Of a stretch of 39,567 nt of DNA, positions 229 to 26,235 are shown piece after piece. The position numbers and the translations under genes were made by a program. Each line of letters starts with the position of its first letter. Position 1 is the stretch's first letter. The stretch comes from a virus. The notes beneath the pieces are model-generated. The model did not search any database. It was given only the letters and a program-made list of their open reading frames with translations, and was not told the DNA's origin. The DNA is taken from IMG/VR virus record IMGVR_UViG_3300025141_008995, positions 1 through 39,567 of that record; one strand, given 5' to 3'.

Positions 229-260
229 GGCGGGCCCGGACCTGCCATTTTGGCAGTTTA
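229..260 (+). repeat. 32-bp repeat, copy 1, with terminator-like hairpin
   Basis: This block is identical to 879-910. It holds a short GC palindrome (CGGGCCCG) and then CTGCCATTTTGGCAG (242-256), a 6-bp stem with a 3-base loop followed by a T-rich run. It sits just after the stop of the first gene and just before the next promoter, so it is read as a transcription terminator or 3'-end element. Confidence 0.7.
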
Positions 261-277
261 TTTTCTTGGTTTTATGC

Positions 278-306
278 TTGACAGTAGCATAAAATTATGG
301 TATAAT
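278..306 (+). promoter_or_regulatory. Consensus sigma70 promoter, leaderless start
   Basis: The -35 box is TTGACA (278-283), the spacer is 17 bases and the -10 box is TATAAT (301-306). The expected transcription start, 6-7 bases past the -10 box, falls on the ATG at 313. Confidence 0.85.
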
Positions 307-312
307 ATCTAT

Positions 313-507
313 ATGAAAATGACACGACAACACTTCCAAGCATTGGCTACCATGACTGCCGATATTATTGTTTCTATTAACGCAACCAAAGACCAGTGCA
401 TTAAAATCACTGATGAGGTCATTGCCGTTTGTAAAGAAGCAAACCCTAAGTTTGACGCTGACCGCTTCGAGACTTGGATTCAAGATATTTTGATAAATAA
501 TTCCTAG
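313..507 (+). CDS. Small hypothetical protein (64 aa)
   Basis: Function not recognised. The protein is mostly helical by composition, without signal peptide or membrane segment, and starts MKMTRQHFQALATMTADI. ATG 313 is chosen because a perfect sigma70 promoter ends at 306. A longer in-frame start at 250 would lie inside the upstream hairpin and promoter and is rejected. There is no Shine-Dalgarno sequence because the mRNA should begin at or next to the ATG. It is the first of several independent small plus-strand transcription units. Confidence 0.7.
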   Translation: MKMTRQHFQALATMTADIIVSINATKDQCIKITDEVIAVCKEANPKFDADRFETWIQDILINNS

Positions 508-514
508 AAAACAC

Positions 515-543
515 TTGACAATGCGCTTCCGCCATGTTATAAT
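515..543 (+). promoter_or_regulatory. Consensus sigma70 promoter with extended -10
   Basis: TTGACA (515-520), a 17-base spacer and TATAAT (538-543), preceded by TG one base upstream (TGTTATAAT). The ATG of the next gene is at 551, 7 bases after the -10 box, so the transcript should be leaderless or nearly so. Confidence 0.85.
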
Positions 544-550
544 AACTACA

Positions 551-769
551 ATGAAATACCTCATCAACCTTTACTCACAGTTTGTCGCTAAACGCTTCGA
601 GCATCTTTACAACAATTCTTATAACCACAGGCAAGACATTAAAGCCATGAAGGTTCTTAACCACTACCGTTCAGTTCGGCGTTTGCTACCTTTGGAAAAA
701 TGTGGAAAGCATTTTGGTAACCATGACGGTTCTAAGAAAAAAGCATATTGTGCTACGCAAGGGTATTAA
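551..769 (+). CDS. Small basic hypothetical protein (72 aa)
   Basis: Function not recognised. The product is rich in His, Lys and Arg and starts MKYLINLYSQFVAKRFEHLY. An in-frame ATG at 515-523 lies inside the -35 region of the promoter, so the start at 551, directly behind the -10 box, is used. A strong intrinsic terminator (834-877) ends this unit. The basic composition would suit nucleic-acid binding, but no motif supports that. Confidence 0.65.
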   Translation: MKYLINLYSQFVAKRFEHLYNNSYNHRQDIKAMKVLNHYRSVRRLLPLEKCGKHFGNHDGSKKKAYCATQGY

Positions 770-833
770 CCCTTAACAGGTTTAGGGCAGGTTGAAAGCC
801 GAGGCGATATATGATACCTATCCTAACCCTTCC

Positions 834-877
834 AAACCCCTGTTTAAACGCGTGCAATGCCCTTCAAACAGGGGTTT
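834..877 (+). terminator. Strong rho-independent terminator
   Basis: A perfect 12-bp stem (AAACCCCTGTTT at 834-845 with its complement at 866-877) encloses a 20-base loop, and the 3' arm ends in TTTT. It follows the stop of the gene at 769 and precedes the second 32-bp repeat. Confidence 0.85.
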
Positions 878-878
878 T

Positions 879-910
879 GGCGGGCCCGGACCTGCCATTT
901 TGGCAGTTTA
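879..910 (+). repeat. 32-bp repeat, copy 2, with terminator-like hairpin
   Basis: Identical to 229-260, including the GC palindrome and CTGCCATTTTGGCAG (892-906). It again lies between a finished transcription unit and the next promoter. Confidence 0.7.
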
Positions 911-950
911 TACTATTTTGCAATATCCTAAAATATTTATAGGTTTTTAC

Positions 951-978
951 TTGCATTATCCGTCCGCCATGTTATAAT
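951..978 (+). promoter_or_regulatory. Sigma70 promoter with extended -10, leaderless start
   Basis: A perfect extended -10 (TGTTATAAT, hexamer 973-978) with a weaker -35 (TTGCAT 951-956, 16-base spacer). The bases around the -10 (CCGCCATGTTATAAT) match the promoter at 515-543. The ATG follows at 985, six bases after the -10 box. Confidence 0.75.
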
Positions 979-984
979 ATAGTC

Positions 985-1167
985 ATGAATAAGCATAAAA
1001 CACCTTCTCGCAATGTTAGCATTGCTAAAATCCCAAATACAAATAGTTATTTGGTTTCTTACACCCCAACAGGCGGAAAAGCCACTACGGCTACATTTTC
1101 CAGTCGCAATCGTGCCAAGTCCTTCGTTAGGCGAAATATCACAAGCAAAGGTGCTTATGCAGGGTAG
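985..1167 (+). CDS. Small basic hypothetical protein (60 aa)
   Basis: Function not recognised. The protein is basic and Ser/Thr-rich, beginning MNKHKTPSRNVSIAKIPN and ending in GAYAG. It has no Cys and no membrane segment. The start is fixed by the promoter, whose -10 box ends six bases upstream; there is no Shine-Dalgarno. Next downstream is another consensus promoter at 1236 that leads into a non-coding stretch. Confidence 0.65.
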   Translation: MNKHKTPSRNVSIAKIPNTNSYLVSYTPTGGKATTATFSSRNRAKSFVRRNITSKGAYAG

Positions 1168-1235
1168 GTAGGTAGGGTATCGGCGTTTGTGAGAGTCCGC
1201 CCCAAGGAACGCTTGGAAAAAACTCACATTTTTAC

Positions 1236-1264
1236 TTGACTTTTGACTTTCTCAATGGTATAAT
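1236..1264 (+). promoter_or_regulatory. Sigma70 promoter for a non-coding transcript
   Basis: TTGACT (1236-1241), a 17-base spacer and TATAAT (1259-1264). No start codon lies near the predicted start site (about 1271). Instead the structured stretch 1271-1373 begins there. Confidence 0.8.
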
Positions 1265-1270
1265 AGTAAA

Positions 1271-1373
1271 CTAGCAAGTGGGGCAACGTCACCCATTGGG
1301 CTTCCTGGGTCGGAGATATCCGTAAAGCTTCCATGAACGTTGGAAATGCCAAAGAAATCCTCGCTTGCTTTTT
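1271..1373 (+). ncRNA. Candidate structured small RNA (about 103 nt)
   Basis: Starts where the 1236-1264 promoter should initiate. AGCAAG (1273-1278) can pair with CTTGCT (1364-1369), directly followed by a T run, so the whole RNA would be closed by a terminal stem with an intrinsic terminator. Inside are a CGGA-GATA-TCCG hairpin with a GNRA-like loop, a TTCCA/TGGAA hairpin with a 7-base loop, and GGG/CCC pairings near the 5' end. No sensible protein is encoded: the overlapping frame at 1333-1599 is made partly of TTTGACTTTTT repeats. It does not match any RNA family I know. Confidence 0.5.
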
Positions 1374-1508
1374 CACCCTGGGGCAGCGTGCCACATTGCT
1401 ATACAAAATAGTTTTGACTTTTTTAAGCGTAAAGTGTTTTTGCACCTTATACCTGGATAGGATCTACGATCGCTGGGGGATTAAGCTTGACTTTTTCCTG
1501 GCCCAAGG

Positions 1509-1523
1509 CTGCCATTTTGGCAG
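1509..1523 (+). terminator. CTGCCATTTTGGCAG hairpin, copy 3
   Basis: The same 15-base inverted repeat as in the 32-bp repeats, here without the GC-rich left part. It is followed by a GC palindrome (GCCGCGCGGC) and a short T run. It probably ends a transcript coming from the left. Confidence 0.55.
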
Positions 1524-1581
1524 TTTCGAGACTCCGCCGCGCGGCTCTTTTAAAACTATGCAAAGTATTTTGACTTTTTTC

Positions 1582-1610
1582 TTGACAATACTAGTTTGAT
1601 ATGTTATAAT
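1582..1610 (+). promoter_or_regulatory. Consensus sigma70 promoter with extended -10
   Basis: TTGACA (1582-1587), a 17-base spacer and TATAAT (1605-1610), preceded by TGT. It lies immediately after a TTTGACTTTTTT repeat. An ATG follows at 1614 and a GTG at 1617, right at the expected transcription start. Confidence 0.8.
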
Positions 1611-1613
1611 GAC

Positions 1614-1676
1614 ATGGTGATCAGCATCCAGACCCACGACTTGGATCGCCGCACGCCACTATTAGGATACAAATGA
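1614..1676 (+). CDS. Possible 20-codon micropeptide (or short RNA)
   Basis: ATG 1614 (or GTG 1617) opens a 20-codon frame, MVISIQTHDLDRRTPLLGYK, directly behind a perfect promoter and ending just before a TTTGACTTTTTT repeat. Its placement copies the leaderless genes nearby. Because it is so short, it could equally be a non-coding RNA of about 60-75 nt. No homologue is recognised. Confidence 0.3.
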   Translation: MVISIQTHDLDRRTPLLGYK

Positions 1677-1738
1677 GTTTTGACTTTTTTTCACCTAAAA
1701 TATATTTGAAATAATCAGTGATTTTTGACTTTTTTCAC

Positions 1739-1767
1739 TTGACATATAGGGGAGGCTACGGTATAAT
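1739..1767 (+). promoter_or_regulatory. Consensus sigma70 promoter, leaderless start
   Basis: TTGACA (1739-1744), a 17-base spacer and TATAAT (1762-1767). The ATG of the coiled-coil gene follows six bases later at 1774. Confidence 0.85.
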
Positions 1768-1773
1768 AATCGC

Positions 1774-2133
1774 ATGGGAAAACACAGAACACCAGAATCA
1801 TTACTCGCTGAGGCTCTTAAGAAGGTTGAAGCACTCAAATTACAAGTCGCTACGAAATCATTGGCTACTGACCCTCGTATGTTAGCAATAACAGCAGAGG
1901 AAAAGGCACTAAAGCAAGAATTGCTCAAGATACAGCGTTGGCTAAATCCCGTTACAGGATTGGCTAGTCGTATCACGAAATTGACTGCACAGATTCGTGA
2001 AGCGGAAGAAAATCTCCAAAACTCTAGTCAGCGTGATATGGAAATCCATATTCGTTTGTCGGAATTGGAAGAAAAGCGTAAGGTAACAGCATCAGAAATC
2101 TCAACAGAGGAAATGCTGATTACTAATGGCTAG
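1774..2133 (+). CDS. Coiled-coil hypothetical protein (119 aa)
   Basis: A charged, Lys/Glu/Leu-rich helical protein with strong heptad character over about residues 5-110, consistent with a long coiled coil. No signal peptide, Cys or catalytic motif is seen. The start follows a perfect sigma70 promoter by six bases, so the mRNA should be leaderless. It overlaps the next gene by 8 bases (ATGGCTAG), which suggests translational coupling. Function unknown. Confidence 0.75.
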   Translation: MGKHRTPESLLAEALKKVEALKLQVATKSLATDPRMLAITAEEKALKQELLKIQRWLNPVTGLASRITKLTAQIREAEENLQNSSQRDMEIHIRLSELEEKRKVTASEISTEEMLITNG

Positions 2134-2356
2134 GTTTAATTACTACGCAGGGGATAGGTTTATTGAAAATCTATCCCTTGGCTCTCGCTCTTGCCCTGAA
2201 TGCAAAGTTTTTTCGCTCTATGTTGAGTCTAGGAAAGAAAAGCGTATAGGGTGTAAGCATTGTCTAGGGGAATGGTCGCTTAAAGAAGATGGCTATAGTT
2301 TGCGCAGAGAGCGTTGGGATAATGTTAGACCTTGGCATCTTGACGAACACCCATAA
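2126..2356 (+). CDS. Zinc-ribbon hypothetical protein (76 aa)
   Basis: Two CxxC knuckles, SCPEC (about residues 23-26) and CKHC (about 43-46), separated by a short basic beta-like segment, form a typical zinc ribbon. The Trp-rich tail (WDNVRPWHLDEHP) is unusual. It overlaps the upstream coiled-coil gene and should be co-transcribed with it. A CTGCCATTTTGGCA hairpin starts at the stop codon. Nucleic-acid or protein binding is plausible; no specific role is known. Confidence 0.7.
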   Translation: MARFNYYAGDRFIENLSLGSRSCPECKVFSLYVESRKEKRIGCKHCLGEWSLKEDGYSLRRERWDNVRPWHLDEHP

Positions 2357-2370
2357 CTGCCATTTTGGCA
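2357..2370 (+). terminator. CTGCCATTTTGGCA hairpin, copy 4
   Basis: One more copy of the short inverted repeat, starting directly after the stop codon of the zinc-ribbon gene. The last base of the copy differs (C instead of G) and the T tail is missing, so termination may be weak. Confidence 0.5.
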
Positions 2371-2487
2371 CGTTAGGGCCCCGCCGCGCTCGTAACTCGC
2401 GCTCCTATAATAACTTATGGCATAAAACTTTGACTTTTTGACCCTAAAAGAAAATAAAGAAATATGCCAATTTATGTAAGTTTAGAG

Positions 2488-2515
2488 TTGCAAACACTTT
2501 AGGAACAAGTATAAT
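2488..2515 (+). promoter_or_regulatory. Probable sigma70 promoter leading into a hairpin
   Basis: TTGCAA (2488-2493), a 16-base spacer and TATAAT (2510-2515). The predicted start overlaps the inverted repeat at 2519-2542, and no gene follows. Confidence 0.5.
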
Positions 2516-2518
2516 ATA

Positions 2519-2542
2519 CAATCTAGCAACAACGCTAGATTG
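2519..2542 (+). terminator. 9-bp hairpin with T-rich tail
   Basis: CAATCTAGC (2519-2527) and its complement GCTAGATTG (2534-2542) enclose a 6-base loop and are followed by TTCTTTAAT. This is terminator-like, but it sits on a promoter start site, so it could also be an operator or a transcription attenuator. Confidence 0.5.
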
Positions 2543-2604
2543 TTCTTTAATATAAATCCGAATCTTTGACTTTTTCTATACGGATATGTCTATTATAGTG
2601 TATA

Positions 2605-2680
2605 GGGGGTAAATGGGCAATTTTGAGTCATCTTTATGGTGCAGGAAATTGGGTAGGTTCAATTCCTACCACCTCCACCA
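2605..2680 (+). tRNA. tRNA-like element with intact T-arm and CCA (pseudo-tRNA?)
   Basis: The 3' half is convincing: T-stem GTAGG/CCTAC (2653-2657, 2665-2669), T-loop TTCAATT, acceptor strand CACCTCC, discriminator A and encoded CCA at 2678-2680. Counting back 76 nt reaches GGGGGTA (2605-2611), which pairs with the acceptor strand with one G-U and one A-C mismatch. A 4-bp D-like stem (2613-2616 with 2628-2631) is possible, but position 8 is A and no good anticodon stem forms. It is best called a degenerate tRNA, a tRNA-like structure or a captured tRNA 3' end. The anticodon cannot be assigned. Confidence 0.45.
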
Positions 2681-2699
2681 TTGTTTGACTTTTTCTGTT

Positions 2700-3140
2700 A
2701 TCGAGAGCGTCTCAAATTGTTTTCCTAGCGCGTCGAAAAGAAAAATCAACATATGGTATGAAGTTTTTAGAAACCTCGGAAAATATTTTATAACAACACT
2801 AGATGTTGTGTGTCCCTTTGACTTTTTCAAGTTAAGGGGGCATTTTTTTTTGTATAGTTAAATAGGATATGGATCGCCGCGTCAGGATGAGAAAAAAATG
2901 GTAATATATGCTTTGACTTTTTTCATAGTAGCCCTGAAATTAACAAAAAAATACCAAAAAAATGGCATATATATTTCAGTTTGTGCGTGATATTGTGATG
3001 TTTTCTCCAATTTGTGTGGTATTTTTTAATTTTTTTACTTCATTATTGGTGTAGCAAATAGTAAAAAACAACAGTAAATGTAAAAAAATGCTAGTATATT
3101 ACAAATTACATAACCTTTTTCTATGTATAAAAAGAAAAAG
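2700..3140. other. AT-rich intergenic region without convincing genes
   Basis: No supported protein gene is seen on either strand. It contains a 6-bp hairpin (ACAACA-CTAGA-TGTTGT near 2802-2818), two TTTGACTTTTT copies, an 11-codon frame at 2870-2905 (too short to support), long A and T runs, and a CTGAAAT/ATTTCAG inverted repeat around 2934-2980 with a nested CCA(A7)TGG. It lies between convergent transcription units and could hold a replication or regulatory element. Confidence 0.5.
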
Positions 3141-5152: not shown

Positions 5153-5481
5153 TTTTCTAACCCAAACATTTCATTTAATTCATTAGAGGTAGGAATATCA
5201 TATTTTTTCCCCATAAGTTCGTCCCATTTATCCCAATACAGTTTTGGCATTTTGATAAGTTTCTTTACATCAAGCATATCAAAACCCTCTGTATCTGCTA
5301 TGAAGTTTAATATGATATTAAGAACCATTTTCGATGATACTTCTTCATCTCCGAAAATAGAATCACAAATATCTATGTATTCGCTACCCATACAAGCAAA
5401 CAAAAGAGCAGTATCAGTAGGCTTAAAAGAACCTTTGAATAACTTGACTATGGATTCATCATATATTGAATACTCACTCAT
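5149..5481 (-). CDS. Hypothetical protein (110 aa)
   Basis: Acidic protein starting MSEYSIYDESIVKLFKGSFK, with no membrane segment or Cys pair. It starts at the stop codon of the sigma-like gene (TAATG), so the two are tightly coupled. The pairing would suit a partner or regulator of the sigma-like protein, but that is inference from position only. Confidence 0.6.
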   Translation of the reverse strand: MSEYSIYDESIVKLFKGSFKPTDTALLFACMGSEYIDICDSIFGDEEVSSKMVLNIILNFIADTEGFDMLDVKKLIKMPKLYWDKWDELMGKKYDIPTSNELNEMFGLEK

Positions 5482-6050
5482 TACGCTTCCTCCTTGTAAT
5501 CGCTGAAAATATTTTGTAAGTGAGATATTAAAACCTTAACATCTCGTTTCTCTTTTTCCATAACCCTAGCCAGTTTTGATACATTCAGATTACCATTAGG
5601 CTTAATTAGGCTAAAATCATTTAGCAAGTGTTTTAATACATCTTTACATTCTGTATTCATTCTAACATCTGCCAACAGTCCACTCACATCAAATGCTTCT
5701 GTAAGGATACTTTCATCTCCAAGTAAATCTTCATCAAGAGAAAACCCTCGTCTAATGTTCATTTTCTTGGTAATGTTCCTACCTGTATTATTCTTTTTAT
5801 TCCACAAGCATGATTTAATATACTTATGAAACTCTCCTGTATCGAAGAAATCATCAAACTCTAGTTCTTGTTTTCTTCCGAATGCTTCACACGCATCACA
5901 AGCAGTAATGTATAACTCTTGGCAAGAATCATCAAAACTGTTTACTACTGTATCTCCTCCAATGCGATGGGCAATCATAAAGATTAGTCTGCCGTATCGC
6001 TTTCTTATTCTTTCTACTTGGTCGTTTGTTATGCTATATTGTTTTTTCAT
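5481..6050 (-). CDS. Sigma-factor-like protein (189 aa)
   Basis: Residues about 10-95 follow the layout of sigma70 region 2: a helix with IRKRYGRLIFMIAHRI, then DDSCQELYITACDACEAF (compare DLxQEgxxgLxxAxxxF), then a helix FHKYIKSCLWNKKNNTGR like the region 2.3/2.4 helix. The C-terminal 50 residues (LNVSKLARVMEKEKRDVKVLISHL) look like a helix-turn-helix. The length is near that of T4 gp55, the late sigma. It could direct host RNA polymerase to phage promoters such as the RCCTTTWATA motif. The assignment rests on motif pattern only. Confidence 0.5.
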   Translation of the reverse strand: MKKQYSITNDQVERIRKRYGRLIFMIAHRIGGDTVVNSFDDSCQELYITACDACEAFGRKQELEFDDFFDTGEFHKYIKSCLWNKKNNTGRNITKKMNIRRGFSLDEDLLGDESILTEAFDVSGLLADVRMNTECKDVLKHLLNDFSLIKPNGNLNVSKLARVMEKEKRDVKVLISHLQNIFSDYKEEA

Positions 6051-6669
6051 TGTTCCAATCCTCGTTAATTTGCATTCTAATTTTTTCTTCTATTTTTGGT
6101 TCACGCTCACTCTGTAAATCGTTTTCTATGCAGTAGTTGTGGCAGTAATCACAATTTTCAGAGTTTTCTTGTTCTCCGCCACCATGCCAACCCATTTCAC
6201 AAACTTCTTCAGATGTAATATCATCGGAAGTTTCTGCTTTTACTTCGCCGTCAAAACCACTTATGCTTCCCTTAAACATCATTCCGTATTCGGCAAAGTC
6301 TAAGTGAAACTCTAATTCGGGGTGCTGTCTAATCATAGCATAAATCACTTTTTGCATAGGACTCCATGCTGTATCAAAAGTATATTGAATATATGTATCT
6401 TGGACATAAAGACTTGTTTCGCAAGCACCCCACTTAGTTCCCCAATTTTCATTTTCCCAATCGTAACCACTATGTATGTTTTCATCTTTTACTGTGCTAT
6501 ATCCATTGTCAATAACTTCTTGTGGCATAGGAACAAACTTGTTACAGTCTAAATCGTTTATGATTTCATCTTGGGGTTGCCACCCTGTTCCTTTTGCTTT
6601 TTCAACAAAAGCCTCAAGGTCTTCTTTTTTACCTTCTATGGTTAATGCGTTTTCACACCAATTTGGCAT
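6034..6669 (-). CDS. Api92/YubB-like (DUF1281-type) protein
   Basis: The N-terminus MPNWCENALTIEGKKEDL is the hallmark of Api92-like proteins with a ferredoxin-like YubB domain, common in phages and plasmids with unknown role. The middle contains TKWGACE and FDTAWSPM, also typical of that family. A Cys cluster (CDYCHNYC, about residue 173 onward) may bind metal and is an addition I do not recall from the family. It has a strong Shine-Dalgarno (AGGAGG). Confidence 0.7.
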   Translation of the reverse strand: MPNWCENALTIEGKKEDLEAFVEKAKGTGWQPQDEIINDLDCNKFVPMPQEVIDNGYSTVKDENIHSGYDWENENWGTKWGACETSLYVQDTYIQYTFDTAWSPMQKVIYAMIRQHPELEFHLDFAEYGMMFKGSISGFDGEVKAETSDDITSEEVCEMGWHGGGEQENSENCDYCHNYCIENDLQSEREPKIEEKIRMQINEDWNNEKTI

Positions 6670-6979
6670 CGTTTTCCTCCTGTTCTAATATTATGTTATC
6701 CGTAAATGGCAACAATGGTTGCTCAATGAGTTTTTCCCCTACTCCCAACTCTCGGTGTGGAGTAAAGATTGTTTCTTTGTTCCAACATTGTGGTATTTCT
6801 CCTCTTTGGGATACTCTACCATCAGCACCAAAACAAGAAGCGTATTCTTGTATTAAAGCATTTGCTTTTCCTAAAGGTGTATTCCTAGAACGAGTTACCT
6901 TTAGGGCGAAACCTACTTCGGAAGTAACAATGTTTAACGCCCCCCATAATTCTTGTGGAATTGGCTGAACCTTAACCAT
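6653..6979 (-). CDS. Hypothetical protein (108 aa)
   Basis: No recognised domain. It starts MVKVQPIPQELWGALNIVTS and contains two Cys far apart. It overlaps its neighbours by 8 and 17 bases, which places it in the same coupled operon as the ATPase/VWA module. The Api92-type gene next to it suggests a shared accessory module. Confidence 0.6.
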   Translation of the reverse strand: MVKVQPIPQELWGALNIVTSEVGFALKVTRSRNTPLGKANALIQEYASCFGADGRVSQRGEIPQCWNKETIFTPHRELGVGEKLIEQPLLPFTDNIILEQEENDAKLV

Positions 6980-7724
6980 TAGCCAATTCCTTTTCTATTA
7001 AAATCATCTCTTGCTCAACAAAAGCCTTTGGCATTGTGTGATTCTTAAAGTAATTCAAGTCCATTTCCCATTTCGTTAAGGTTTTACCCCATCGTGTTCT
7101 GTCTGCTTCATCACGAATATAACTAAAAGCCTTTTTACACATAGCAAAGAAAGAATGCTTTTCATATCTTTTAGATATGAAAGGCGAACACCCATTTGTT
7201 AGTGTTGGGTCAATATGGCATGATTTAGACGAATATCCTCTCACTTGAAAATATCTTCTCCATACATTTTCGCTATATTTTATTTCGCACTCAATCACAG
7301 GAACATTCATTTCTCTTACGCCCCTAATGATGTCTACTAACTTTATTACTTTCTCGCTATTTCGCAGAGTATCAAAGTGTGCGAGTTCTCGACTGTATGT
7401 TCTTCCTTGATTTATATCACTTTCCATCAGTTGTCTAGCAACTAATGCTAATGCTTTTGTAGAAACAACTAAGCCTAAACCTTTACTGTTTTCTACGATT
7501 TCACACCTTGAATCGTTGCTATTTACAATGGAAACGAAAACTCGTAAACCCTCGTCCTCAACATTTCCTACCTTTTTGGTAAACGAGAGAATCTTTTTAA
7601 CTTCCATTGCCTCGCCATACTCGTAAGAAAAATTATCAAGATTGGCTAAAGTAGGGAATAGTGTTAGAAACGGCAACTTGCCATTTACTGTTAGTTTTGT
7701 TTTTTTATTTCGGAACTTGCTCAT
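6972..7724 (-). CDS. Hypothetical protein linked to the VWA module (250 aa)
   Basis: A soluble mixed alpha/beta protein with a basic N-terminus (MSKFRNKKTKLTVNGKLPFL) and a Cys pair too dispersed to call a zinc site. It starts one base after the stop of the VWA gene (TAACATG). The constant neighbourhood suggests it works with the ATPase/VWA set. No known family is recognised. Confidence 0.6.
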   Translation of the reverse strand: MSKFRNKKTKLTVNGKLPFLTLFPTLANLDNFSYEYGEAMEVKKILSFTKKVGNVEDEGLRVFVSIVNSNDSRCEIVENSKGLGLVVSTKALALVARQLMESDINQGRTYSRELAHFDTLRNSEKVIKLVDIIRGVREMNVPVIECEIKYSENVWRRYFQVRGYSSKSCHIDPTLTNGCSPFISKRYEKHSFFAMCKKAFSYIRDEADRTRWGKTLTKWEMDLNYFKNHTMPKAFVEQEMILIEKELANG

Positions 7725-7725
7725 G

Positions 7726-8649
7726 TTATTCTAAAGTTGAGTCTAAAAGGGTCATTAAAGTAGAGAACATTTTATTGGTCATGCCCTCTAGGGATTCGGT
7801 AGAACAAATAACATTATCTCCATAAATATCTCTTTGTTCATTTTCGCTCATTTCTCTTCCAATCATCATGGAAAAGTTTGGGATACCACGCAAGTATTTG
7901 TTGCGAAGTTCTTTCGTTTCTACATTGTATAAACTTCTTCCTTCTTCTCCTACAACAGCGTATGTTTCGCCATCAGTAAGATTGAAAATAATAGTGTTTT
8001 TTGTAGTAATGTTTTTTGACATCCACGAACACAATGCAGGCAAAACTCCATATTCGGCAGTATAACTTCCTTGAGTTTCGCCGTCAATAGTAAATGGCAT
8101 ATAACAGTCCATTCCAAGAATCTCGTCAAAGTTGTTTATACCCCTTTTGGTATTTGTAAGAACTCTAGTTAGATTTAGAAATGCCCCTTTAGTGCCTAGT
8201 TGATTCGCTTTTACTCCGCCACAAGATTTAAGAAAAACCTCAAACTTGAGTTGGTTATTTAAGACCTTATCAACCGCTTTTCCAAAAGCAGAACAAATAG
8301 CATTGCTTACTTGAAGTCGGCTTACGCGCAAATCATCATTGTTACTTACATAACTACTCATTGAACCACTACCATCAATCAACATAACTATTGTTGTGTC
8401 TGATGTTGGAATGTGTTGATGCGCCTTGAAAATAGTTTCCGTAAAAGGGTAGCGATAAGCCAAACGACTATCTAATCTCCCCTTTGTTGTAGATATTTTT
8501 CTAGGTCTTTTAGATTCAAGTAAAAGCCCCATTTGATTTGTAAAACGATTATACAATCTATCACGAAGTATTATCGTATCGCTAGTAGGCTCATCTATAA
8601 ACGCATCTTTAGTAAAAGTAACTGTTTGTTTTGTAGCATCTGATGGCAT
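7726..8649 (-). CDS. VWA-domain protein with MIDAS (CobT C-terminal-like)
   Basis: A von Willebrand A fold is shown by TTIVMLIDGSGSMSSY at about residues 85-100, with the metal-ion-dependent adhesion site D92-x-S94-x-S96, a later Thr-containing strand and IIFNLTDGETY (about residue 225), the third MIDAS segment. In MoxR/VWA and CobS/CobT pairs such a domain couples a AAA+ ATPase to a client. Here it follows the CobT-like HExxH protein and a zinc-site protein in one operon. The role is probably protein or metal-centre remodelling; the client is unknown. Confidence 0.8.
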   Translation of the reverse strand: MPSDATKQTVTFTKDAFIDEPTSDTIILRDRLYNRFTNQMGLLLESKRPRKISTTKGRLDSRLAYRYPFTETIFKAHQHIPTSDTTIVMLIDGSGSMSSYVSNNDDLRVSRLQVSNAICSAFGKAVDKVLNNQLKFEVFLKSCGGVKANQLGTKGAFLNLTRVLTNTKRGINNFDEILGMDCYMPFTIDGETQGSYTAEYGVLPALCSWMSKNITTKNTIIFNLTDGETYAVVGEEGRSLYNVETKELRNKYLRGIPNFSMMIGREMSENEQRDIYGDNVICSTESLEGMTNKMFSTLMTLLDSTLE

Positions 8650-9357
8650 TTATGAAACCCCCAATGTGTGTTTATCTACGATAAAAACTTTATTATCGCT
8701 GAAGCGTATAGATGCTTTCATTTCTGTGTTACCACAACCGCAGAACATTCTTTCATTATTAAGATACTGAGGCGATGGTGTGTTTGGGATTTCATTACAC
8801 TCATCACAAGCATCAGCATTAAAAATAACATTTGATGGTTTTCCTTCAACAATGCTTTGATTTACATTTGACCTAGCAATCTCAACAGCGTTATGAGCGT
8901 TAAAATCACTTCCAAAAGCATACCCCTCTTTTAACAAATATGAAATCGCAGAGTCAATATCATCAACAGTCTTATCTGCTACCCCAACGGTAGCCGAAAC
9001 GATGCTCATGTTTTCTACATTTTCTTTTGCGGATTCAATTCTTTCGTCTAAAGTTTTTGGTAAGGGATACTTGCTGTAATGGGCAGTTGCTTTTGATTCG
9101 CCTTGCCGTATCATACGGTCAAAATACTTATCTTCTTTGCTGTATTGTCCAAAGTAAAACTCAACTTCTTCGTTGAGAGCCACTCGTGATTCTTGGCAAA
9201 TATCTCTATCTGCCATTCTGTGAGTATTCATCAGATTCCATTCTTTCTCGTATGCTTCCCTATCTTCAATAGTATATTGAGAGATAACGAGGTCTGATTG
9301 GTCGAGAGCATCTTTCATCGGATGCGTCATTTCATAAAGTTCTAGTTTTCTAGTCAT
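8650..9357 (-). CDS. Hypothetical protein with Cys-rich C-terminal motif (235 aa)
   Basis: ATG 9357 is used; an upstream in-frame TTG overlaps the preceding gene. The first 150 residues are helical and charged. Residues about 180-215 contain CDECNE and then FCGCGN, two Cys pairs that could form a zinc knuckle. The gene sits between the HExxH part and the VWA part of the CobT-like pair and ends one base before the VWA start, so it is probably a third component. No known family is recognised. Confidence 0.65.
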   Translation of the reverse strand: MTRKLELYEMTHPMKDALDQSDLVISQYTIEDREAYEKEWNLMNTHRMADRDICQESRVALNEEVEFYFGQYSKEDKYFDRMIRQGESKATAHYSKYPLPKTLDERIESAKENVENMSIVSATVGVADKTVDDIDSAISYLLKEGYAFGSDFNAHNAVEIARSNVNQSIVEGKPSNVIFNADACDECNEIPNTPSPQYLNNERMFCGCGNTEMKASIRFSDNKVFIVDKHTLGVS

Positions 9358-9358
9358 G

Positions 9359-10585
9359 TTAGTTTGTTGCGTCAAAAATTATGGTGGAGAAATCCACCTT
9401 AAACCCACTAGCATCAAAATGCTCTGTGGTGTGATGGACACTAATGTCCTTAAATGCTTCAATCTCAGCAAGGAAAGTGGCAGGTAAAAGTTTTGGCTTA
9501 TTACGCTTCTGTCTTTGCTCAGAAAGTTTTACGGCTAGTTTTTTACCTATGGAAACTTGAACTTCTCCTTTGGTAACTTCCGCATCTTCAAACTCAATAC
9601 CTTCAGAATCCTCTTTGGCTCTTAAAACCATTTTATCATCTTCGGACATTTCGTTTAGTAAATCTTCTTCGGCATCGGTCATGGATTTTTCACTCATGTA
9701 TAAATCCATATAATCGACACCCCCCAATGTTGTCTCAAAATTAGTTTGCTTGTTCTTAAACAAATCTTCGATATGTTTACGAATAACATCGGCAAACTTT
9801 GAGAAAATTAAAGGGGTATACTCCTTTGGCGTTTGGTTCAGAATCAAAGACTTATCGCCAAATCTTTCTTCAATGAAAGAGTCGTTGATAAATCCTTTGT
9901 GCTGAAACAACAATCGAAAGGCTACATTGAACAAACTATTTTCATTCAATTCGCCACTCTCATACTTTGGAGCAAAATGCTCCTTAAAGATTCGTGTAGA
10001 CATCTTTTCTTCATACTTCGCCAAGTTTGGTGGGGCAAGAGAATCAATCCTAATATCTTCAACAGCGTTCAACAAAAATGCTAAATCATTACAAGCAGTT
10101 CGTAAAAACATAACATTTTCAGTTACCTCTGTATCGTTACTATACAAAGTCTTAAAGTCTAAAGTAGAATCAGAAAGAACAATATCATAAATACTTGTCC
10201 ATTCTTCATCTCCTGTTTCAACAAAAAGAGAATCCATACATTTACAAATCATACCAAAACAAGAAGCCCATGTTTGCCTTTCGGAATCGGAAAGTTTTAT
10301 ATGATGAAGTTCGTGAATCATACAACCAAGTGTATCATCTATTCGTCCATCTTCTAGTAAATGTGTAGGAATGTAGATAATGTTTTCATCTACGGAAGCC
10401 TTTGCCCCCTCATTTTGTTCTGTTGGAAACTCTACCTTTACGCCACTATCGGGAACAATAATATCTCGGTAATGAGTTATTAAAGTGCGAATATCGAAAA
10501 GCGTCTTGGCAGACAAAGAATCAATCTTCGCCCCACCAAGCCATCTTTCCATATATTCAGCGTCAATAGAAACAGGGTCAAACAT
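9359..10585 (-). CDS. CobT-like protein with HExxH motif (408 aa)
   Basis: MIHELHHIKLSD (HELHH at about residues 91-95) gives a metallopeptidase-type metal site. LLNAVEDIRIDSLAP further on recalls the ExxRI segment of CobT-family proteins. The C-terminal 130 residues are acidic and then basic, and the VWA domain that usually ends CobT is missing; it is encoded separately at 7726-8649. The start overlaps the ATPase stop (TAATG). It is likely the adaptor or protease-like partner of the AAA+ ATPase. Proteolytic activity is not shown. Confidence 0.7.
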   Translation of the reverse strand: MFDPVSIDAEYMERWLGGAKIDSLSAKTLFDIRTLITHYRDIIVPDSGVKVEFPTEQNEGAKASVDENIIYIPTHLLEDGRIDDTLGCMIHELHHIKLSDSERQTWASCFGMICKCMDSLFVETGDEEWTSIYDIVLSDSTLDFKTLYSNDTEVTENVMFLRTACNDLAFLLNAVEDIRIDSLAPPNLAKYEEKMSTRIFKEHFAPKYESGELNENSLFNVAFRLLFQHKGFINDSFIEERFGDKSLILNQTPKEYTPLIFSKFADVIRKHIEDLFKNKQTNFETTLGGVDYMDLYMSEKSMTDAEEDLLNEMSEDDKMVLRAKEDSEGIEFEDAEVTKGEVQVSIGKKLAVKLSEQRQKRNKPKLLPATFLAEIEAFKDISVHHTTEHFDASGFKVDFSTIIFDATN

Positions 10586-11409
10586 TAGTTTTCTTCTTTA
10601 TCTGTTGAGCCACCGTAAACGCCAAGTGAGTCTGCGTATTCACGAAGAATGTTCGCATCATTTAGAATGTTGCTACTATCTTGCTTGAACATGGATAAGA
10701 TTACATTATCTAAAATGTCTTTCAATGCGAAAGTTTTAGTTAATTCAGCAACCATCAAAACAGCCCTTGTAGAAATGCGTGTTGATAGTTTTGCTTGGTC
10801 AAACATTTTATGAGAGTAATCATATAGTTTAAGCAATGAATCACATTTTTCAGCAACTTCAGCACTTATAGTTTTCTTGATATAAGTTTTAAGGCTACGC
10901 CCTTTGATATACTCAAGATTAAAAATAGCAAAACGGTCTTGTAACGCTCGGTCAATACTTCTTGTTGAAGAATACTCTAAGCCAACATTAGCAGTTGCCA
11001 TAAACCTAACGCCTTTGGCAACATTTACTATTCTATCTTCATCTTTCTCATCAACACGAATGTTTTGACGGAAATCTAAGATTGGAAAAATAATATTATA
11101 TGCGTCATCAGAACCTCTTGATAATTCATCTAAGATTACAAGTGTATTGGGTTTCTGAATCGCTTTTAGGAAATCTGCTTCTTGGAACTTGGTGCTACCA
11201 TTTTCCAATGTGAAATATCCAATGAGTGATGACCTAGCATCTTGTGTCGAACCGCAGTTGATAACGACAGGTTCAAGATTCAACTCTTTAGCAATCTCAA
11301 CCGCTAAAGTAGTTTTACCTGTTCCTGTTGCCCCTGTGATAAGAACATTTTGTTTTTGATTTACCATTTCTGTTAGAATGGATTTTTTAGTTTTATTTAT
11401 TACAAACAT
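10585..11409 (-). CDS. CobS/MoxR-like AAA+ ATPase (274 aa)
   Basis: Walker A GATGTGKT (residues 26-33), Walker B VILDELSRG (91-99), sensor segment FMATANVG and an arginine-finger segment RALQDRF fit the MoxR/CbbQ/CobS branch of AAA+. Cobalt-chelatase-like CobS genes are known from T4-like phages. It is the first gene after the sigma70 promoter at 11451-11479, with a leader of about 30 bases and no clear Shine-Dalgarno. Together with the HExxH and VWA genes it forms an ATPase-driven remodelling module. Confidence 0.85.
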   Translation of the reverse strand: MFVINKTKKSILTEMVNQKQNVLITGATGTGKTTLAVEIAKELNLEPVVINCGSTQDARSSLIGYFTLENGSTKFQEADFLKAIQKPNTLVILDELSRGSDDAYNIIFPILDFRQNIRVDEKDEDRIVNVAKGVRFMATANVGLEYSSTRSIDRALQDRFAIFNLEYIKGRSLKTYIKKTISAEVAEKCDSLLKLYDYSHKMFDQAKLSTRISTRAVLMVAELTKTFALKDILDNVILSMFKQDSSNILNDANILREYADSLGVYGGSTDKEEN

Positions 11410-11450
11410 AAGTGTTTAATTGGCAGTATGCCTAGTTATTGTGAATGTAT

Positions 11451-11479
11451 ATTATACCATAGCCTAAAGTATTAGTCAA
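11451..11479 (-). promoter_or_regulatory. Consensus sigma70 promoter of the ATPase/VWA operon
   Basis: On the minus strand TTGACT (11479-11474), a 17-base spacer and TATAAT (11456-11451). It lies behind a terminator and before the first gene of an uninterrupted run of minus-strand genes to 3231, so it probably drives them early with host polymerase. Confidence 0.85.
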
Positions 11480-11497: not shown

Positions 11498-11536
11498 GAA
11501 AAAGAAATAAGGGGCTATGTCTTAGACATAACCCCT
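11498..11536 (-). terminator. Intrinsic terminator after the 11572-11862 gene
   Basis: AGGGG-C-TATGTC (11510-11521) pairs with GACATA-A-CCCCT (11525-11536) around a 3-base loop. On the minus strand the hairpin is followed by TTATTTCTTTTT. It isolates the operon below from transcription above. Confidence 0.8.
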
Positions 11537-13661: not shown

Positions 13662-14090
13662 TTACATTAGTTTAACAGACTCAGCCTCTTTCTTAATAGG
13701 CAACTCAAGGAAGAGCATGCCGTTCTTAAATGAAGTCTTAGCCCCACGCGCATCGTAGCTGTCATCGATTCCAATAGTAAACTGGACTGGCTTCTTGCTA
13801 ATCCCGTTATGAATGGTCTCAAATCCTTCCCCCCAATCTTCTGACTCAGCTGAGACTGAGATTGAGGTTTCGTTTGCGGTAACTGAGATGTTATCCTTAC
13901 CATACCCTGCCATTGCGAAACGCAACCCCAGAGTATTTTTGTTATTAGAGATGACGCAATCGCAAGGCGGGTAATTTGGTAGTTTTACCGTACTTGAATT
14001 TGCAACCTCTTCAGCCACAAAGGGCTTTCTTAGAAATTCGCCTGCGACCTCGTCAAACAAGCGATCAAAATGTGTGTAATAATAGTTCAT
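13662..14090 (-). CDS. Small heat-shock protein (Hsp20 family)
   Basis: The alpha-crystallin domain spans about residues 45-140: LGLRFAMAGYGKDNISVTA, then ISVSAES, then the terminal strand NGMLFLELPIKKE. The C-terminal I-x-I/V motif is weak (VKLM). T4-like phages of aquatic bacteria often carry hsp20. It acts as an ATP-independent holdase, perhaps protecting virion assembly. It has its own leader with a strong Shine-Dalgarno (AAAGGAGG) and a terminator right after the stop, so it is a single-gene unit. Confidence 0.85.
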   Translation of the reverse strand: MNYYYTHFDRLFDEVAGEFLRKPFVAEEVANSSTVKLPNYPPCDCVISNNKNTLGLRFAMAGYGKDNISVTANETSISVSAESEDWGEGFETIHNGISKKPVQFTIGIDDSYDARGAKTSFKNGMLFLELPIKKEAESVKLM

Positions 14091-14378: not shown

Positions 14379-15398
14379 TTATACCTCCTTGGTATTATAG
14401 TTAGAGCCTTCAGCATCTTTTGTGAGAAAATTAATATATTTTTTAACTCCCTCACCAATGCTTAAAAACGGCTCTTTGTAGCCAGCACCCCGCAACTTCG
14501 TCACCGAGGCTTGCGTATCGTACTGGTATTGCTCTTGAATGTCTTCGGGCATCTCGATATATTTAACCCCGAAGTAATTTTCGTACCCCATATTGTGGAA
14601 TACGTGAGATGCGACACAGTTAAAAGATTCGGCTTGTCCTGTACCTACATTAAATAGTCCATTCACATCTTCATTTTCTAACAGCCAATAGATTACTTTG
14701 CAACAATCATCCACGTGAACAAAATCTCTGCGTTGTTCTCCATGGTCAAACTCGTCCTCGTAAGATTTAAATAGGTGTATGTGGGGGTTCTCTTCTTCCC
14801 CAAAGGTCAGGATCTGATCATGCATTTTCAACATAATACTTCTCATGTGTCCTTTATGCTCTTCATGAGGACCGTACACATTAAAGAACTTTAAACCTAC
14901 CAGTTGAGGAGGTTTGCCTCCCCCATTATCAATAGATTCAAATATTCTATGATCGACCATAGCCTTTGTTCTTGCATATGGGTTTAAAGGGTTAAGTTTA
15001 GCTAAATGCTCTAAAGCATCATCATCAAAATGTCCATGTTCTCCACCTCCATACGTAGCTGCAGAGGAAGCGTACATAAACCTAATTTGTAGCCTCTTAC
15101 AAGCCTCATAAAGATCCATGGTGAAATCTACATTGTTGGTAAGTAATTCGTCTGACGCTGGCGCTGTGGTGTCAGAAATGGCTCCTAGGTGAATTACTGC
15201 TGCAATTCTACCTTCCCACCTCTCTAAAAACTTAATAAGGTCATTAGGATGGATATCAGCTGGGAACCCACGAGAGTTGTCAACGTAATCACACGTGTAC
15301 ACTGGGCTTCCATGCAATCCTGCATTCGCAGCTTGGTCATCTATAAGGCTTATAAGGTTTTTCCCTATAAAGCCACTGCTTCCTGTTACTATTATCAT
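14379..15398 (-). CDS. hldD: ADP-glyceromanno-heptose 6-epimerase
   Basis: Catalyses the last step of ADP-heptose synthesis, ADP-D-glycero- to ADP-L-glycero-D-manno-heptose. Short-chain dehydrogenase fold: nucleotide loop GSSGFIG (residues 6-12), YASSAATYGG, the active-site region NPYARTKAM, then FFNVYGPHEEHKGHM, FNVGTGQAESFN and LRGAGYKEPF, all hallmarks of HldD (the E. coli enzyme has YASSAATYGG, FNVYGPREGHKGSM, FNLGTGRAESF). 339 aa compared with about 310 in bacteria. It starts six bases after an RCCTTTWATA motif. The kinase and nucleotidyltransferase steps are encoded at 38278-39415. Confidence 0.9.
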   Translation of the reverse strand: MIIVTGSSGFIGKNLISLIDDQAANAGLHGSPVYTCDYVDNSRGFPADIHPNDLIKFLERWEGRIAAVIHLGAISDTTAPASDELLTNNVDFTMDLYEACKRLQIRFMYASSAATYGGGEHGHFDDDALEHLAKLNPLNPYARTKAMVDHRIFESIDNGGGKPPQLVGLKFFNVYGPHEEHKGHMRSIMLKMHDQILTFGEEENPHIHLFKSYEDEFDHGEQRRDFVHVDDCCKVIYWLLENEDVNGLFNVGTGQAESFNCVASHVFHNMGYENYFGVKYIEMPEDIQEQYQYDTQASVTKLRGAGYKEPFLSIGEGVKKYINFLTKDAEGSNYNTKEV

Positions 15399-17366: not shown

Positions 17367-18101
17367 TTATATAGAGGATTTCATGGAACAATCTACAGGA
17401 TAATCGTAAGGTAAATTTATATCTTTATAAGGTACGGATTTAACCTCGGGGAATTCCTCACGAGCTAAGTCTATAACCGCTTTCCGCTTAGTTCCTATGT
17501 TTAGAATACCTTTTTTATTTTTACAAATAGCCTCTACAATCTTCTTAGCGATGATATCCACCCAATCCTTAGACGTGTAAACATCCCTAAACGCTTGAGT
17601 TAATTGTTTTTTATCCTCTCCCCAAGTCTCTCGTTTAACAAAAGAAGTTCTAATAATTAGATCGGTTTTAGAAAAATGTGATTCCCCTGCCAATTTGGTA
17701 AAACCGTAAAACGTAGTAGGTCCTGTTTTACTTCGGGGGGTGTAATTTCCTTCTATGCCAGGATAAACATAATCAGTAGAAATATAAACAACTTTAACCT
17801 TTGATACTTCATCAAACGCGTAAGCAATGTTTGCGGCTCCAAAAATGTTCGACTCGATTACCTTTCTTTGAAACTTGGGGTTTTCAGCTTTGGGGACATC
17901 GGTCCACGCAGCTGCATGTATTACTAAATCGTACTTAGTATTTCTAGCGAACTCTGCAACTTCTACAACATCTTCTACTCTAAGCTCTGCACGTGTCGGT
18001 GCGTCTACCTCAGCCCCTTCATCTATAAGAAGAGGTATGAGTTCAGAGCCTAACGCACCACTACCCCCGGTTACTAAAATCTTTCGTTCTACTAATCTCA
18101 T
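17367..18101 (-). CDS. rmlD: dTDP-4-dehydrorhamnose reductase
   Basis: Reduces dTDP-4-keto-L-rhamnose to dTDP-L-rhamnose. SDR fold with GGSGALGSEL near the N-terminus, then VIHAAAWTDVPKAE (compare VVNAAAYTxVDxAE), YISTDYVYPG, and the catalytic Y-x3-K in FYGFTKLAGE. The length is 244 aa, below the usual 290-300, with a reduced substrate domain. The start overlaps the rmlB 3' end by about 40 bases. The family ending is intact but short. Confidence 0.85.
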   Translation of the reverse strand: MRLVERKILVTGGSGALGSELIPLLIDEGAEVDAPTRAELRVEDVVEVAEFARNTKYDLVIHAAAWTDVPKAENPKFQRKVIESNIFGAANIAYAFDEVSKVKVVYISTDYVYPGIEGNYTPRSKTGPTTFYGFTKLAGESHFSKTDLIIRTSFVKRETWGEDKKQLTQAFRDVYTSKDWVDIIAKKIVEAICKNKKGILNIGTKRKAVIDLAREEFPEVKSVPYKDINLPYDYPVDCSMKSSI

Positions 18102-19044
18102 CTTTTAAAAATCCTTCTAAGGTTTGATATACTTTTTCCCCTAGGAATTCTTCTGTTTTCTTATTGTTAAGTCTATAAACTCTGTCATGTCCTAATCTAT
18201 CTTCGACGTGGACAGTTTTTAACTCCATCCCTAGTTGTTTTGCAATGTACTTGACGATTTCTATATTTTTATAATGAAATCCTGATCCGATATTGTATTC
18301 TTCATTTTCTGCAGACGAAAACATTAATTCCAAAATAGTTTGGCAATTATCATCCACGTGCATCCACTCACGAGACTGAAGACCATCACCGTAAATAGGA
18401 ATTTCCAAATCTCCTTTAATGGCTTTAAACACTTTTGGAATGAATTTTTCGGGGTTTTGGTTTGGTCCGAAATTATTGCAGGTTCTCGTGATGAGGTAGG
18501 GCACGTCGAATGTCCTTGCAGCTGCTTGAACCAAGAGCTCTGCAGAAGCTTTCGTTGCTGAATAATACGAAGACGGGCGAAGCTTAAAGGATTCATCAGA
18601 GGATTGTCGTCCTTGTAGGTCGTACATATCCCCATAGACTTCATCCGTAGATATTTGGATAAATTTCTTGAGTTTTTTGGCATGTTTAAAGTACTCTAAT
18701 AGGTTAAGAACGCCTTCTACATTAGTCTTAACGAAAGGGCGTCCGTTGGTAATGGAATTGTCTACATGAGTCTCCGCAGCAAAATTAACAACGTACTTAG
18801 CTTTTAAAAGTGCATCCTGCTCAAGGTCTGGTAGTTTGTTAAAGTCGATACAAATATCCTCTTTCATAAAACGATATCGCTTTATGTCTTGACGCATTCT
18901 TTCGGAGAGTCGTGTATGGTCAGCGGCGTAGGTTTCTTTATCGATGTTGATAATCTTTAACTTAGTATTTTCATACACAGCGTGTATAAATCTAGACCCA
19001 ATAAAACCTAAACCCCCAGTAATTACAATCGTATCATTTTCCAC
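18061..19044 (-). CDS. rmlB: dTDP-glucose 4,6-dehydratase
   Basis: Converts dTDP-glucose to dTDP-4-keto-6-deoxyglucose. Nucleotide loop GGLGFIGSRF, FAAETHVDNSI, ISTDEVYGDM (catalytic Thr-Asp-Glu), SYYSATKASAELL (Y-x3-K) and RTCNNFGPNQNPEKFIP are diagnostic. 327 aa is normal for the family. The start overlaps the rmlA stop, giving an rmlA-rmlB-rmlD cluster transcribed together. Confidence 0.92.
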   Translation of the reverse strand: MENDTIVITGGLGFIGSRFIHAVYENTKLKIINIDKETYAADHTRLSERMRQDIKRYRFMKEDICIDFNKLPDLEQDALLKAKYVVNFAAETHVDNSITNGRPFVKTNVEGVLNLLEYFKHAKKLKKFIQISTDEVYGDMYDLQGRQSSDESFKLRPSSYYSATKASAELLVQAAARTFDVPYLITRTCNNFGPNQNPEKFIPKVFKAIKGDLEIPIYGDGLQSREWMHVDDNCQTILELMFSSAENEEYNIGSGFHYKNIEIVKYIAKQLGMELKTVHVEDRLGHDRVYRLNNKKTEEFLGEKVYQTLEGFLKDEISRTKDFSNRG

Positions 19045-25266: not shown

Positions 25267-26235
25267 TTAATTTTTAGATTTTTGGTACCAATCAACATAT
25301 CTTTTTATTCCTTCCTCGTAAGGAACTTCAGGATTGTAGTTATGTCTTTCTTTTATTTTAGAAATAGAGGACTGAGTTTTTGTAGGCTCACCGGCTTGTA
25401 TTGTCATCTCCTCGCAGTTGGGGATTTTATGCATATGCACGCCTATTTCAGCAACCATTTCATGCAGTTCTACAGGCTCTCCCCTCCCTATATTAAAAAT
25501 TTCAAAACCTTGAACATCAGACATGCAGCAAAAAATACCTTCTATAATATCAGAAATATAAGTATAGTCTCTAAACGTCTCTCCTTGACTACCGTACAAT
25601 TGTATGGGGGTCCCTTCATCAATAGCTTTTGTAAACTTTGCTATTGCCATGTCAGGGCGTTGTCTAGGACCGTATACTGTAAAGAACCGTAACCCTAACA
25701 TAGGTATTTTAGTTAGCTTGTGGTAAGTGTAACAGACCTCTTCAAGAGCTTTTTTGCTTCCTGCATAAGGAGATAAAGGTTTAGATACGTTCATACTCTC
25801 CTCCCATGGAAACACTTTAACACCTCCATAGACGCTCGAGGATGAAGCAAAAATAAGCTTAGCCCTCCACCTGTACGGAGAATTTTCAAGAGCGCGTAAC
25901 AAGCTTAAACTTTTAATTAAGTTATTTTGGTAATACTTTTCAGGGTCGTCCAAGGAAGGTCGAACTCCTGCATGTGCAGCTAAGTGTATAACATAATCAA
26001 ACCCTGTAGTCATTAGAGTTTTGGTAACTTCCTCTCCTGAAAAATCACCTTCAATCAACTTGTACATAGGGTTATCGAGGTTGGCAGACACATTCCTACG
26101 TTTAAGCTTACTAGGGTAGTCTGGATGGTACTGCCCAAACGTATCACACCCCCAAACTTCATAACCTTCAGACAGCAATCTGTCTGCTAGATTAGAACCT
26201 ATAAACCCGGCTATCCCTGTTATGAATACTCTCAT
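25267..26235 (-). CDS. NAD-dependent nucleotide-sugar epimerase (GalE/CapI-like)
   Basis: SDR fold: TGIAGFIGSNLADRL near the N-terminus, HLAAHAGVRPSLDDP, ASSSSVYGGVKVFPW, the catalytic SPYAGSKKALEEV (Y-x3-K), LRFFTVYGPRQRPDMA and FNIGRGEPVEL. The AGVR and YGPRQRPDMA pieces are typical of UDP-glucuronate 4-epimerases (CapI). 322 aa is normal. Substrate cannot be fixed from sequence alone. It overlaps the GT2 gene by 4 bases and heads the glycan island. Confidence 0.85.
   Translation of the reverse strand: MRVFITGIAGFIGSNLADRLLSEGYEVWGCDTFGQYHPDYPSKLKRRNVSANLDNPMYKLIEGDFSGEEVTKTLMTTGFDYVIHLAAHAGVRPSLDDPEKYYQNNLIKSLSLLRALENSPYRWRAKLIFASSSSVYGGVKVFPWEESMNVSKPLSPYAGSKKALEEVCYTYHKLTKIPMLGLRFFTVYGPRQRPDMAIAKFTKAIDEGTPIQLYGSQGETFRDYTYISDIIEGIFCCMSDVQGFEIFNIGRGEPVELHEMVAEIGVHMHKIPNCEEMTIQAGEPTKTQSSISKIKERHNYNPEVPYEEGIKRYVDWYQKSKN

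Follow-up and report, generated by a model that had tools for sequence, protein, structure and literature searches.

A putative split form of the viral MoxR-vWA-metallopeptidase module in marine phages of the T4 superfamily

The viral record IMGVR_UViG_3300025141_008995 (39,567 nucleotides (nt); this 39.6-kb stretch, analyzed as a whole, is called the window here and is probably a fragment of a larger genome) carries four adjacent minus-strand open reading frames (ORFs) encoding, in the order of transcription, an AAA+ ATPase, a protein with an HExxH motif, a middle protein and a von Willebrand factor A (VWA) protein. As judged from sequence, these genes are a split, four-part form of a module on record for other viruses, the MoxR-vWA-metallopeptidase or "cobST" module. 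On balance, the module of these T4-superfamily marine phages is probably an ATP-driven machine that remodels proteins and cuts its clients, and it would probably act early. The new elements are the separate protease and metal ion-dependent adhesion site (MIDAS) parts and a clade-specific subunit; a split CobT and a CobST pair without CobN both have precedent.

The four-gene operon and its protein components

The operon starts with the AAA+ gene (10585..11409; 274 amino acids (aa), MoxR/CobS-midasin clade, Walker A GATGTGKTT), followed by the HExxH gene (9359..10585; 408 aa, a putative minigluzincin-like zinc protease domain with HELHH and then EDIRID), the middle gene (8650..9375; 241 aa with its listed start) and the VWA gene (7726..8649; 307 aa, a complete-looking MIDAS with DGSGS, T197 and D226). 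The stop codon of the AAA+ gene overlaps the ATG of the HExxH gene (TAATG), one base lies between the HExxH stop and an ATG in frame with the middle gene (TAA-C-ATG), and the middle and VWA genes abut with a gap of zero (TAA-ATG). Likewise, a single base (TAA-C-ATG) lies between the VWA gene and the next gene on the minus strand (6972..7724), which encodes a 250-aa protein with no assigned family. As all junctions overlap or are 0-1 base apart, translation is likely coupled through to this last gene, and the coupled operon proposed in a preliminary description of the window was borne out. The listed start of the middle gene is a TTG at 9375, while the ATG at 9357 is likelier. A programmed frameshift from the HExxH gene into the middle gene was rejected, as a separate start is present in every homologue, and in the window an ATG lies one base past the HExxH stop.

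Relatives were gathered from viral contigs with the HExxH, AAA and VWA proteins as queries, and family hidden Markov models built from four or five members each were then used to map the loci. Every complete locus displayed the same four-gene order without exception, giving 12 distinct lineages (the window, L001, L008, L010, L015, L021, L023, L025, L028, L029, L030 and L032), and the truncated contigs L007 and L022 agree. The synteny search that the preliminary description had proposed as a check thus returned 11 further lineages, all marine viral. Identity to the window is 57-68% for the AAA+ protein in closer relatives, 34-49% for the VWA protein, 24-49% for the HExxH protein and 18-30% for the middle protein, and the constant order despite such divergence points to selection on the module. 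Among ten records tested, Portal_T4 was found in five and Gp23 in four, each list including one single-chain outgroup (L033) and otherwise split-form carriers; as the relatives carry these T4 genes, the split clade is assigned to the T4 superfamily. The window encodes UvsX-like and DnaB-like proteins, and no T4 portal or gp23 gene was found in it. In a tree of AAA+ proteins, the split lineages form one clade (support 97/98) amid single-chain lineages, so the split probably arose once.

The identity of the AAA+ ATPase is well founded, with matches to Pfam AAA_5 (1e-15) and phrog_249 (1e-30) and, by hhalign, to cyanophage CobS (98%, E 2e-13), placing it in the MoxR/CobS clade. Its relatives in the PDB are midasin (2e-39), CobS (4e-14) and NorQ (3e-12), while TIGR01650 CobS is matched far under the cut-off. 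The protein lacks the N-terminal extension present in several single-chain systems. Other AAA relatives include a gene of Microcystis phage Mel-JY01 (L002, 6170-7852) with ~280 extra N-terminal residues, in the flank of which no HExxH or VWA gene was found, and genes in five Bacteroidia symbiont contigs (L034-L038) that stand beside lipid-type genes, with no HExxH or VWA partner in the flanks checked.

The VWA protein is indeed a separate protein with a complete-looking MIDAS, and D92-x-S94-x-S96, T197 and D226 are invariant in 13 homologues. A single-sequence search gave phrog_459 "peptidase" (5e-4) and two marginal matches among annotated phages. Profile comparison by hhalign aligned the protein with the C-terminal half of the single-chain peptidase of cyanophages and Ochrobactrum phage (97.5%, E 8e-12) and with the single-chain proteins of Bacteroides phages and fecal phages (92%, E 6e-7).

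For the HExxH protein, single-sequence family searches returned nothing useful, and no close relative was found among annotated phages. However, the motif itself (H91-E92-x-x-H95) is invariant in 13/13 homologues, as is a downstream motif (N173..E176-D177-x-R179-I180-D181), agreeing with the initial call of a CobT-like protein with HExxH. In profile-profile comparison with the single-chain Bacteroides-phage and fecal-phage proteins (91%, E 1e-6), the alignment covers HExxH and EDxRI, so that the HExxH domain and EDxRI(D/E) fall on the same motifs of the single-chain proteins. The protein is built of a predicted zincin domain, a helical middle, a poorly ordered linker and a C-terminal beta hairpin. 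Foldseek related the zincin part of the AlphaFold model to abylysin, selecase and jannalysin over ~70 residues (probability 0.96-0.99 for the best, E 0.6-1.4), and the minigluzincin family is also weakly matched by sequence (proabylysin, E 0.68). E176, in the invariant EDxRID motif, is likely the third ligand Glu, and the invariant HExxH/EDxRID site suggests a catalytic peptidase. Taken with the VWA alignment, the comparison agrees with the earlier view of the HExxH protein and the VWA protein as CobT-like halves with an extra gene between them.

The middle protein and comparison with known systems

The middle protein was first described as a Cys-rich zinc protein, a description that did not hold. 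It consists of a conserved helical core (residues ~19-127) and a variable C-terminal part with four Cys, and the window protein has five Cys in 241 aa. A CxxC..CxC-like set is present in 5/13 homologues; it is missing from those of L008, L015, L023, L025 and L029, and the proteins of L028, L030 and L032 are about 114-132 aa long and wholly lack the C-terminal domain. Conserved Cys ligands of a zinc ribbon or Cys-rich protein were thus not found. AlphaFold predicted residues 11-120 with a predicted local distance difference test (pLDDT) score of ~90 or more, including a long helix at 36-75. Comparison of the protein with Pfam, PHROGs, PDB folds and viral folds was negative throughout; in the fold searches, nothing in the PDB or BFVD reached E <= 0.001. 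An origin as a relocated linker or AAA N-terminal extension was rejected, as no profile match was obtained to four candidate sets (cyanophage peptidases, cyanophage CobS, single-chain Bacteroides-phage proteins and AAA N-terminal extensions). The middle protein turned up in the split clade only. Based on its gene position and co-conservation, it probably takes the place of the covalent linker as a tether between the protease and the VWA protein and AAA+ ATPase.

The closest described counterpart is the pair annotated "cobS" and "peptidase" or "cobT" (phrog_249 and phrog_459), which occurs in hundreds of T4-like cyanophages, in Ochrobactrum phage OC and in jumbo phages of group 2.2, and in which an AAA+ protein is likewise encoded next to or near HExxH, EDxRI and a MIDAS VWA domain. 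The "peptidase/CobT" of P-SSM3, ACG-2014f, S-SM1 and Ochrobactrum phage OC is a single chain of 699-745 aa, in which HExxH lies near residue 60 and DxSGS near 390-480, and its gene adjoins or lies near "CobS" inside the gp55-gp47-gp46 ... gp45-gp44 cluster in these four phages. The single-chain peptidase was found by tblastn in 463 phage records. The pair resembles the module of the window further in motif order, phage core neighborhood and T4-like carriers, and L033, the single record of this kind searched for CobN, likewise gave none. In contrast, peptidase and VWA domain are separate genes in all lineages of the split clade, a gene for a new helical protein stands between them, the AAA gene comes first, and its product has no N-terminal extension. 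Iyer and co-workers, who described the single-chain pair of jumbo phages, proposed, without experiments on these proteins, that it acts in virion assembly (PMC7824862).

Bacteroides phage BS162P1 and related fecal phages (L003 and L004) share with the window an AAA+ gene upstream of the HExxH/VWA gene, and their AAA+ proteins are among the nearest relatives outside the split clade; the single-chain protein adjoins the closest AAA relatives in L003, L004 and L005. These phages display the motifs HEGCH, EDERIE and LIDESGS, yet in one chain of 599-618 aa with no middle protein found and with ~140 extra N-terminal residues in the AAA+ protein. In halovirus HHTV-2, the VWA part stands apart from the remaining cobT with an AAA+ gene nearby (PMC8651126), but this is an archaeal virus with the VWA gene first and several small genes between, and a motif search found no HExxH in gp03-gp07, gp09 or gp10. 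The statement that CobT is normally one polypeptide stands for bacterial T4-like phages, with HHTV-2 as a reported case of a split cobT.

Among cellular systems, NorQ/NorD, CbbQ/CbbO, CobS/CobT and midasin also combine a MoxR-clade AAA+ protein with a VWA partner for client remodeling or metal insertion, but without a middle protein, and none of them is known to have an HExxH protease. Minigluzincins and WLM proteases (abylysin, selecase and Wss1) have a small HExxH zincin fold to which the HExxH protein is weakly matched; here the putative zincin is part of a larger helical protein that has a VWA protein as its partner. Direct sequence comparison with cellular CobT gave one marginal match, for the VWA protein (E 0.62), and CobT was not listed by the cyanophage peptidase profile.

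Promoter and neighboring genes

A sigma70-type promoter with an extended -10 element precedes the module on the minus strand (11451..11479; TTGACT-17-TATAAT with TGG preceding the -10), with 11/12 consensus matches (p = 0.003 relative to shuffled versions of this upstream region). The module is separated from an upstream 96-aa gene by a terminator-like hairpin (11510..11536, minus strand; a 12-pair stem with six GC pairs and a T-rich tail). Among the 13 lineages in which the AAA+ gene is seen, all upstream regions contain a TGn-extended site, with TG one base ahead of the -10, at 55-108 nt ahead of the AAA+ start, and in 12 of them the site reaches 10/12 matches or more (each p < 0.04 against its own shuffles, most < 0.01); L021 has a weak -35 (9/12 matches, p 0.36). 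The promoter proposed initially is hence near-consensus and has a counterpart before the AAA+ gene in other lineages. In T4, strong host-type promoters are early. By this analogy, early synthesis of the module is likely, and the module is probably expressed early as far as the promoter type tells. No paper combining all search terms was found for the transcription timing of cyanophage cobS. A T4 late promoter ahead of the module was rejected, since the sole match to TATAAATA in the window is at 934-941, fewer than expected by chance. The remaining near-consensus promoters in the window lie at 278-1739 on the plus strand, among short ORFs, with one more at 39146 that has no TG. The short ORFs cluster at 250-2900 (plus strand) with five near-perfect sigma70 promoters (278, 515, 1236, 1582 and 1739), and this cluster is likely an early small-gene region.

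The preliminary description had suggested that the genes at 6653-7724 belong to the module. This stands for the gene at 6972-7724, whose homologue adjoins the VWA gene or a sigma-like gene in eight lineages; the gene at 6653-6979 is conserved, yet located elsewhere in L001. The sigma-like gene (5481..6050, minus strand) encodes a 189-aa sigma-70 region-2-like protein. Pfam Sigma70_r2 was matched by 12/13 family members (best E 1.3e-5) and phrog_351, RNA polymerase sigma factor, by 9/13 (best 6.5e-5), and the family has a strongly conserved FDKYIKxxLWNxKNNxG stretch (FHKYIKSCLWNKKNN in the window). In every locus extending far enough, the homologue lies directly after the VWA gene or at most ~1.7 kb downstream, with other genes between in several lineages. 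The protein may serve these T4-like phages as their late sigma factor; profile comparison with two gp55 sequences gave no match and so did not support an identity as gp55.

Elsewhere on the minus strand of the window are genes for an Api92-like protein (6034-6669; Pfam DUF1281_C, 1e-7), an Hsp20/alpha-crystallin protein (13662-14090; Pfam 2e-7), as in T4-like cyanophages, and a ClpA-like AAA+ protein (20835-22076; phrog_4871 "ATP-dependent protease", 9e-84), a gene that an ORF in L001 (467-1744) resembles. Furthermore, nucleotide-sugar epimerase and glycosyltransferase genes (14379-15398, 18061-19044, 25267-26235, 26232-26957 and 32935-34128) suggest modification of surface glycans or of DNA with sugars.

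Proposed mechanism and alternative explanations

In the proposed mechanism, the AAA+ protein would form a hexameric ring on which the VWA protein docks with a finger in the pore, as in NorQ/NorD, and the MIDAS would grip an acidic side chain of the client. ATP hydrolysis would then twist or pull the client, the minigluzincin-like domain of the HExxH protein would cut it, and the middle protein would stand in for the covalent linker, holding the protease to the VWA/AAA+ assembly. Cryo-electron microscopy of NorQ/NorD has revealed that a finger of the VWA protein sits in the AAA+ pore and that ATP drives a twisting of the linker of the partner (PMC13036017), and similar docking is plausible here given the same AAA+ clade and the MIDAS. 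In addition, the minigluzincin-like protease Wss1 acts with the AAA+ ATPase Cdc48 (PMC4559962); with this precedent and the zincin resemblance, a machine that remodels and cuts would be the most economical explanation.

Several points weigh against this interpretation. The module members are known here from sequence and predicted structure, and catalysis by the HExxH site is deduced. The HExxH protein aligned with the N-terminal half of the cyanophage protein at E 0.001 (probability 22%), at NxxEDxRI, and its homology leans more on synteny, motif order and the forms found in Bacteroides phages. The Foldseek E-values for the zincin part exceed 0.1 and by themselves give weak support, some forks of the AAA+ tree lack support and some of its branches are long, and the tethering role of the middle protein comes from gene position and co-conservation. 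Finally, an early-type promoter is compatible with a function late in infection.

As for the client, the linkage to the sigma-like gene and the gp55/46/47/45/44 synteny in other T4-like phages favor a role in host takeover, replication or a late-transcription switch over cobalt chelation, and the sigma-like linkage together with the promoter weakly indicates a client in host takeover, replication or transcription. It could be speculated, as a tentative extension, that the module is an early AAA+-driven metalloprotease in which the helical subunit couples a detachable minigluzincin to the MIDAS/AAA+ motor and directs it to the host transcription or replication machinery.

The alternative that survives best, though doubtful, is a chaperone-protease for virion assembly, in which the MoxR-vWA pair and the metallopeptidase assemble and trim T4-like structural proteins. 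Such a role was put forward for the single-chain form of group 2.2 jumbo phages by analogy with the MoxR-vWA pair of Acidianus two-tailed virus (PMC7824862), and it fits with T4-like carriers, whose heads need proteolytic maturation, and with the Hsp20 and ClpA-like ATPase genes in the same window. However, the conserved strong host-type promoter argues against it, and in the annotated phages examined, the single-chain pair has replication and sigma genes as its neighbors, not structural ones. Moreover, the single-chain form is not universal in T4-like phages, and cobS was counted as cyanophage-specific among 26 T4-like genomes compared (PMC3037559).

Alternatively, the machine may remove or process a host sigma or anti-sigma factor so that the linked sigma-like protein directs late transcription. 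While every complete locus has the sigma-like gene downstream and, in other T4-like phages, gp55 and gp45 are close to the single-chain pair, this explanation is unlikely, as the evidence is one of linkage, interrupted by intervening genes in several lineages, and the sigma-like protein had no profile match to the two gp55 sequences compared.

A further explanation follows the annotation tradition: the AAA+ and VWA/HExxH proteins may act as CobST for the CobN of the host and so raise cobalamin synthesis. Liu and co-workers, who used the name "cobST" and reported the HHTV-2 split, proposed this hijack of host CobN explicitly, again without experiments (PMC8651126), and the AAA+ matches to TIGR01650 and the solved CobS chains are in line with it. 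Yet, CobN (PF02514) was not found in the window and 17 related records, all 18 being fragments, in agreement with the absence of CobN noted at first. The HExxH and VWA proteins matched no CobT model above the cut-off, CobT_C being hit by 1/13 VWA members (E 0.1); in addition, midasin ranks ahead of CobS among the PDB matches of the AAA+ protein, and the invariant HExxH/EDxRID site points to a peptidase. This makes the hijack of CobN quite improbable and supports as probable the earlier suggestion that the module remodels a protein rather than making cobalamin. Least probable is counter-defense, also suggested at the outset, in which the module would dismantle or cut a host defense complex early: the early-type promoter and the use of MoxR-vWA pairs on the host side of conflict systems (PMC7159879) are consistent with it, but the module is constant over 12 distinct lineages, unlike the patchy spread of most anti-defense genes, and PADLOC gave generic ATPase matches to the AAA+ protein and one weak VWA match, which is no positive evidence.

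The remodel-and-cut machine thus remains the preferred interpretation, and it bears on how such genes are annotated. The cobS and cobT genes of phages are usually read as auxiliary metabolic genes for vitamin B12, despite the HExxH motif in the second protein. In the split clade, the middle protein adds a conserved subunit family absent from every library used, and with peptidase, MIDAS adaptor and third subunit as separate proteins, the B12 reading becomes directly testable, part by part.

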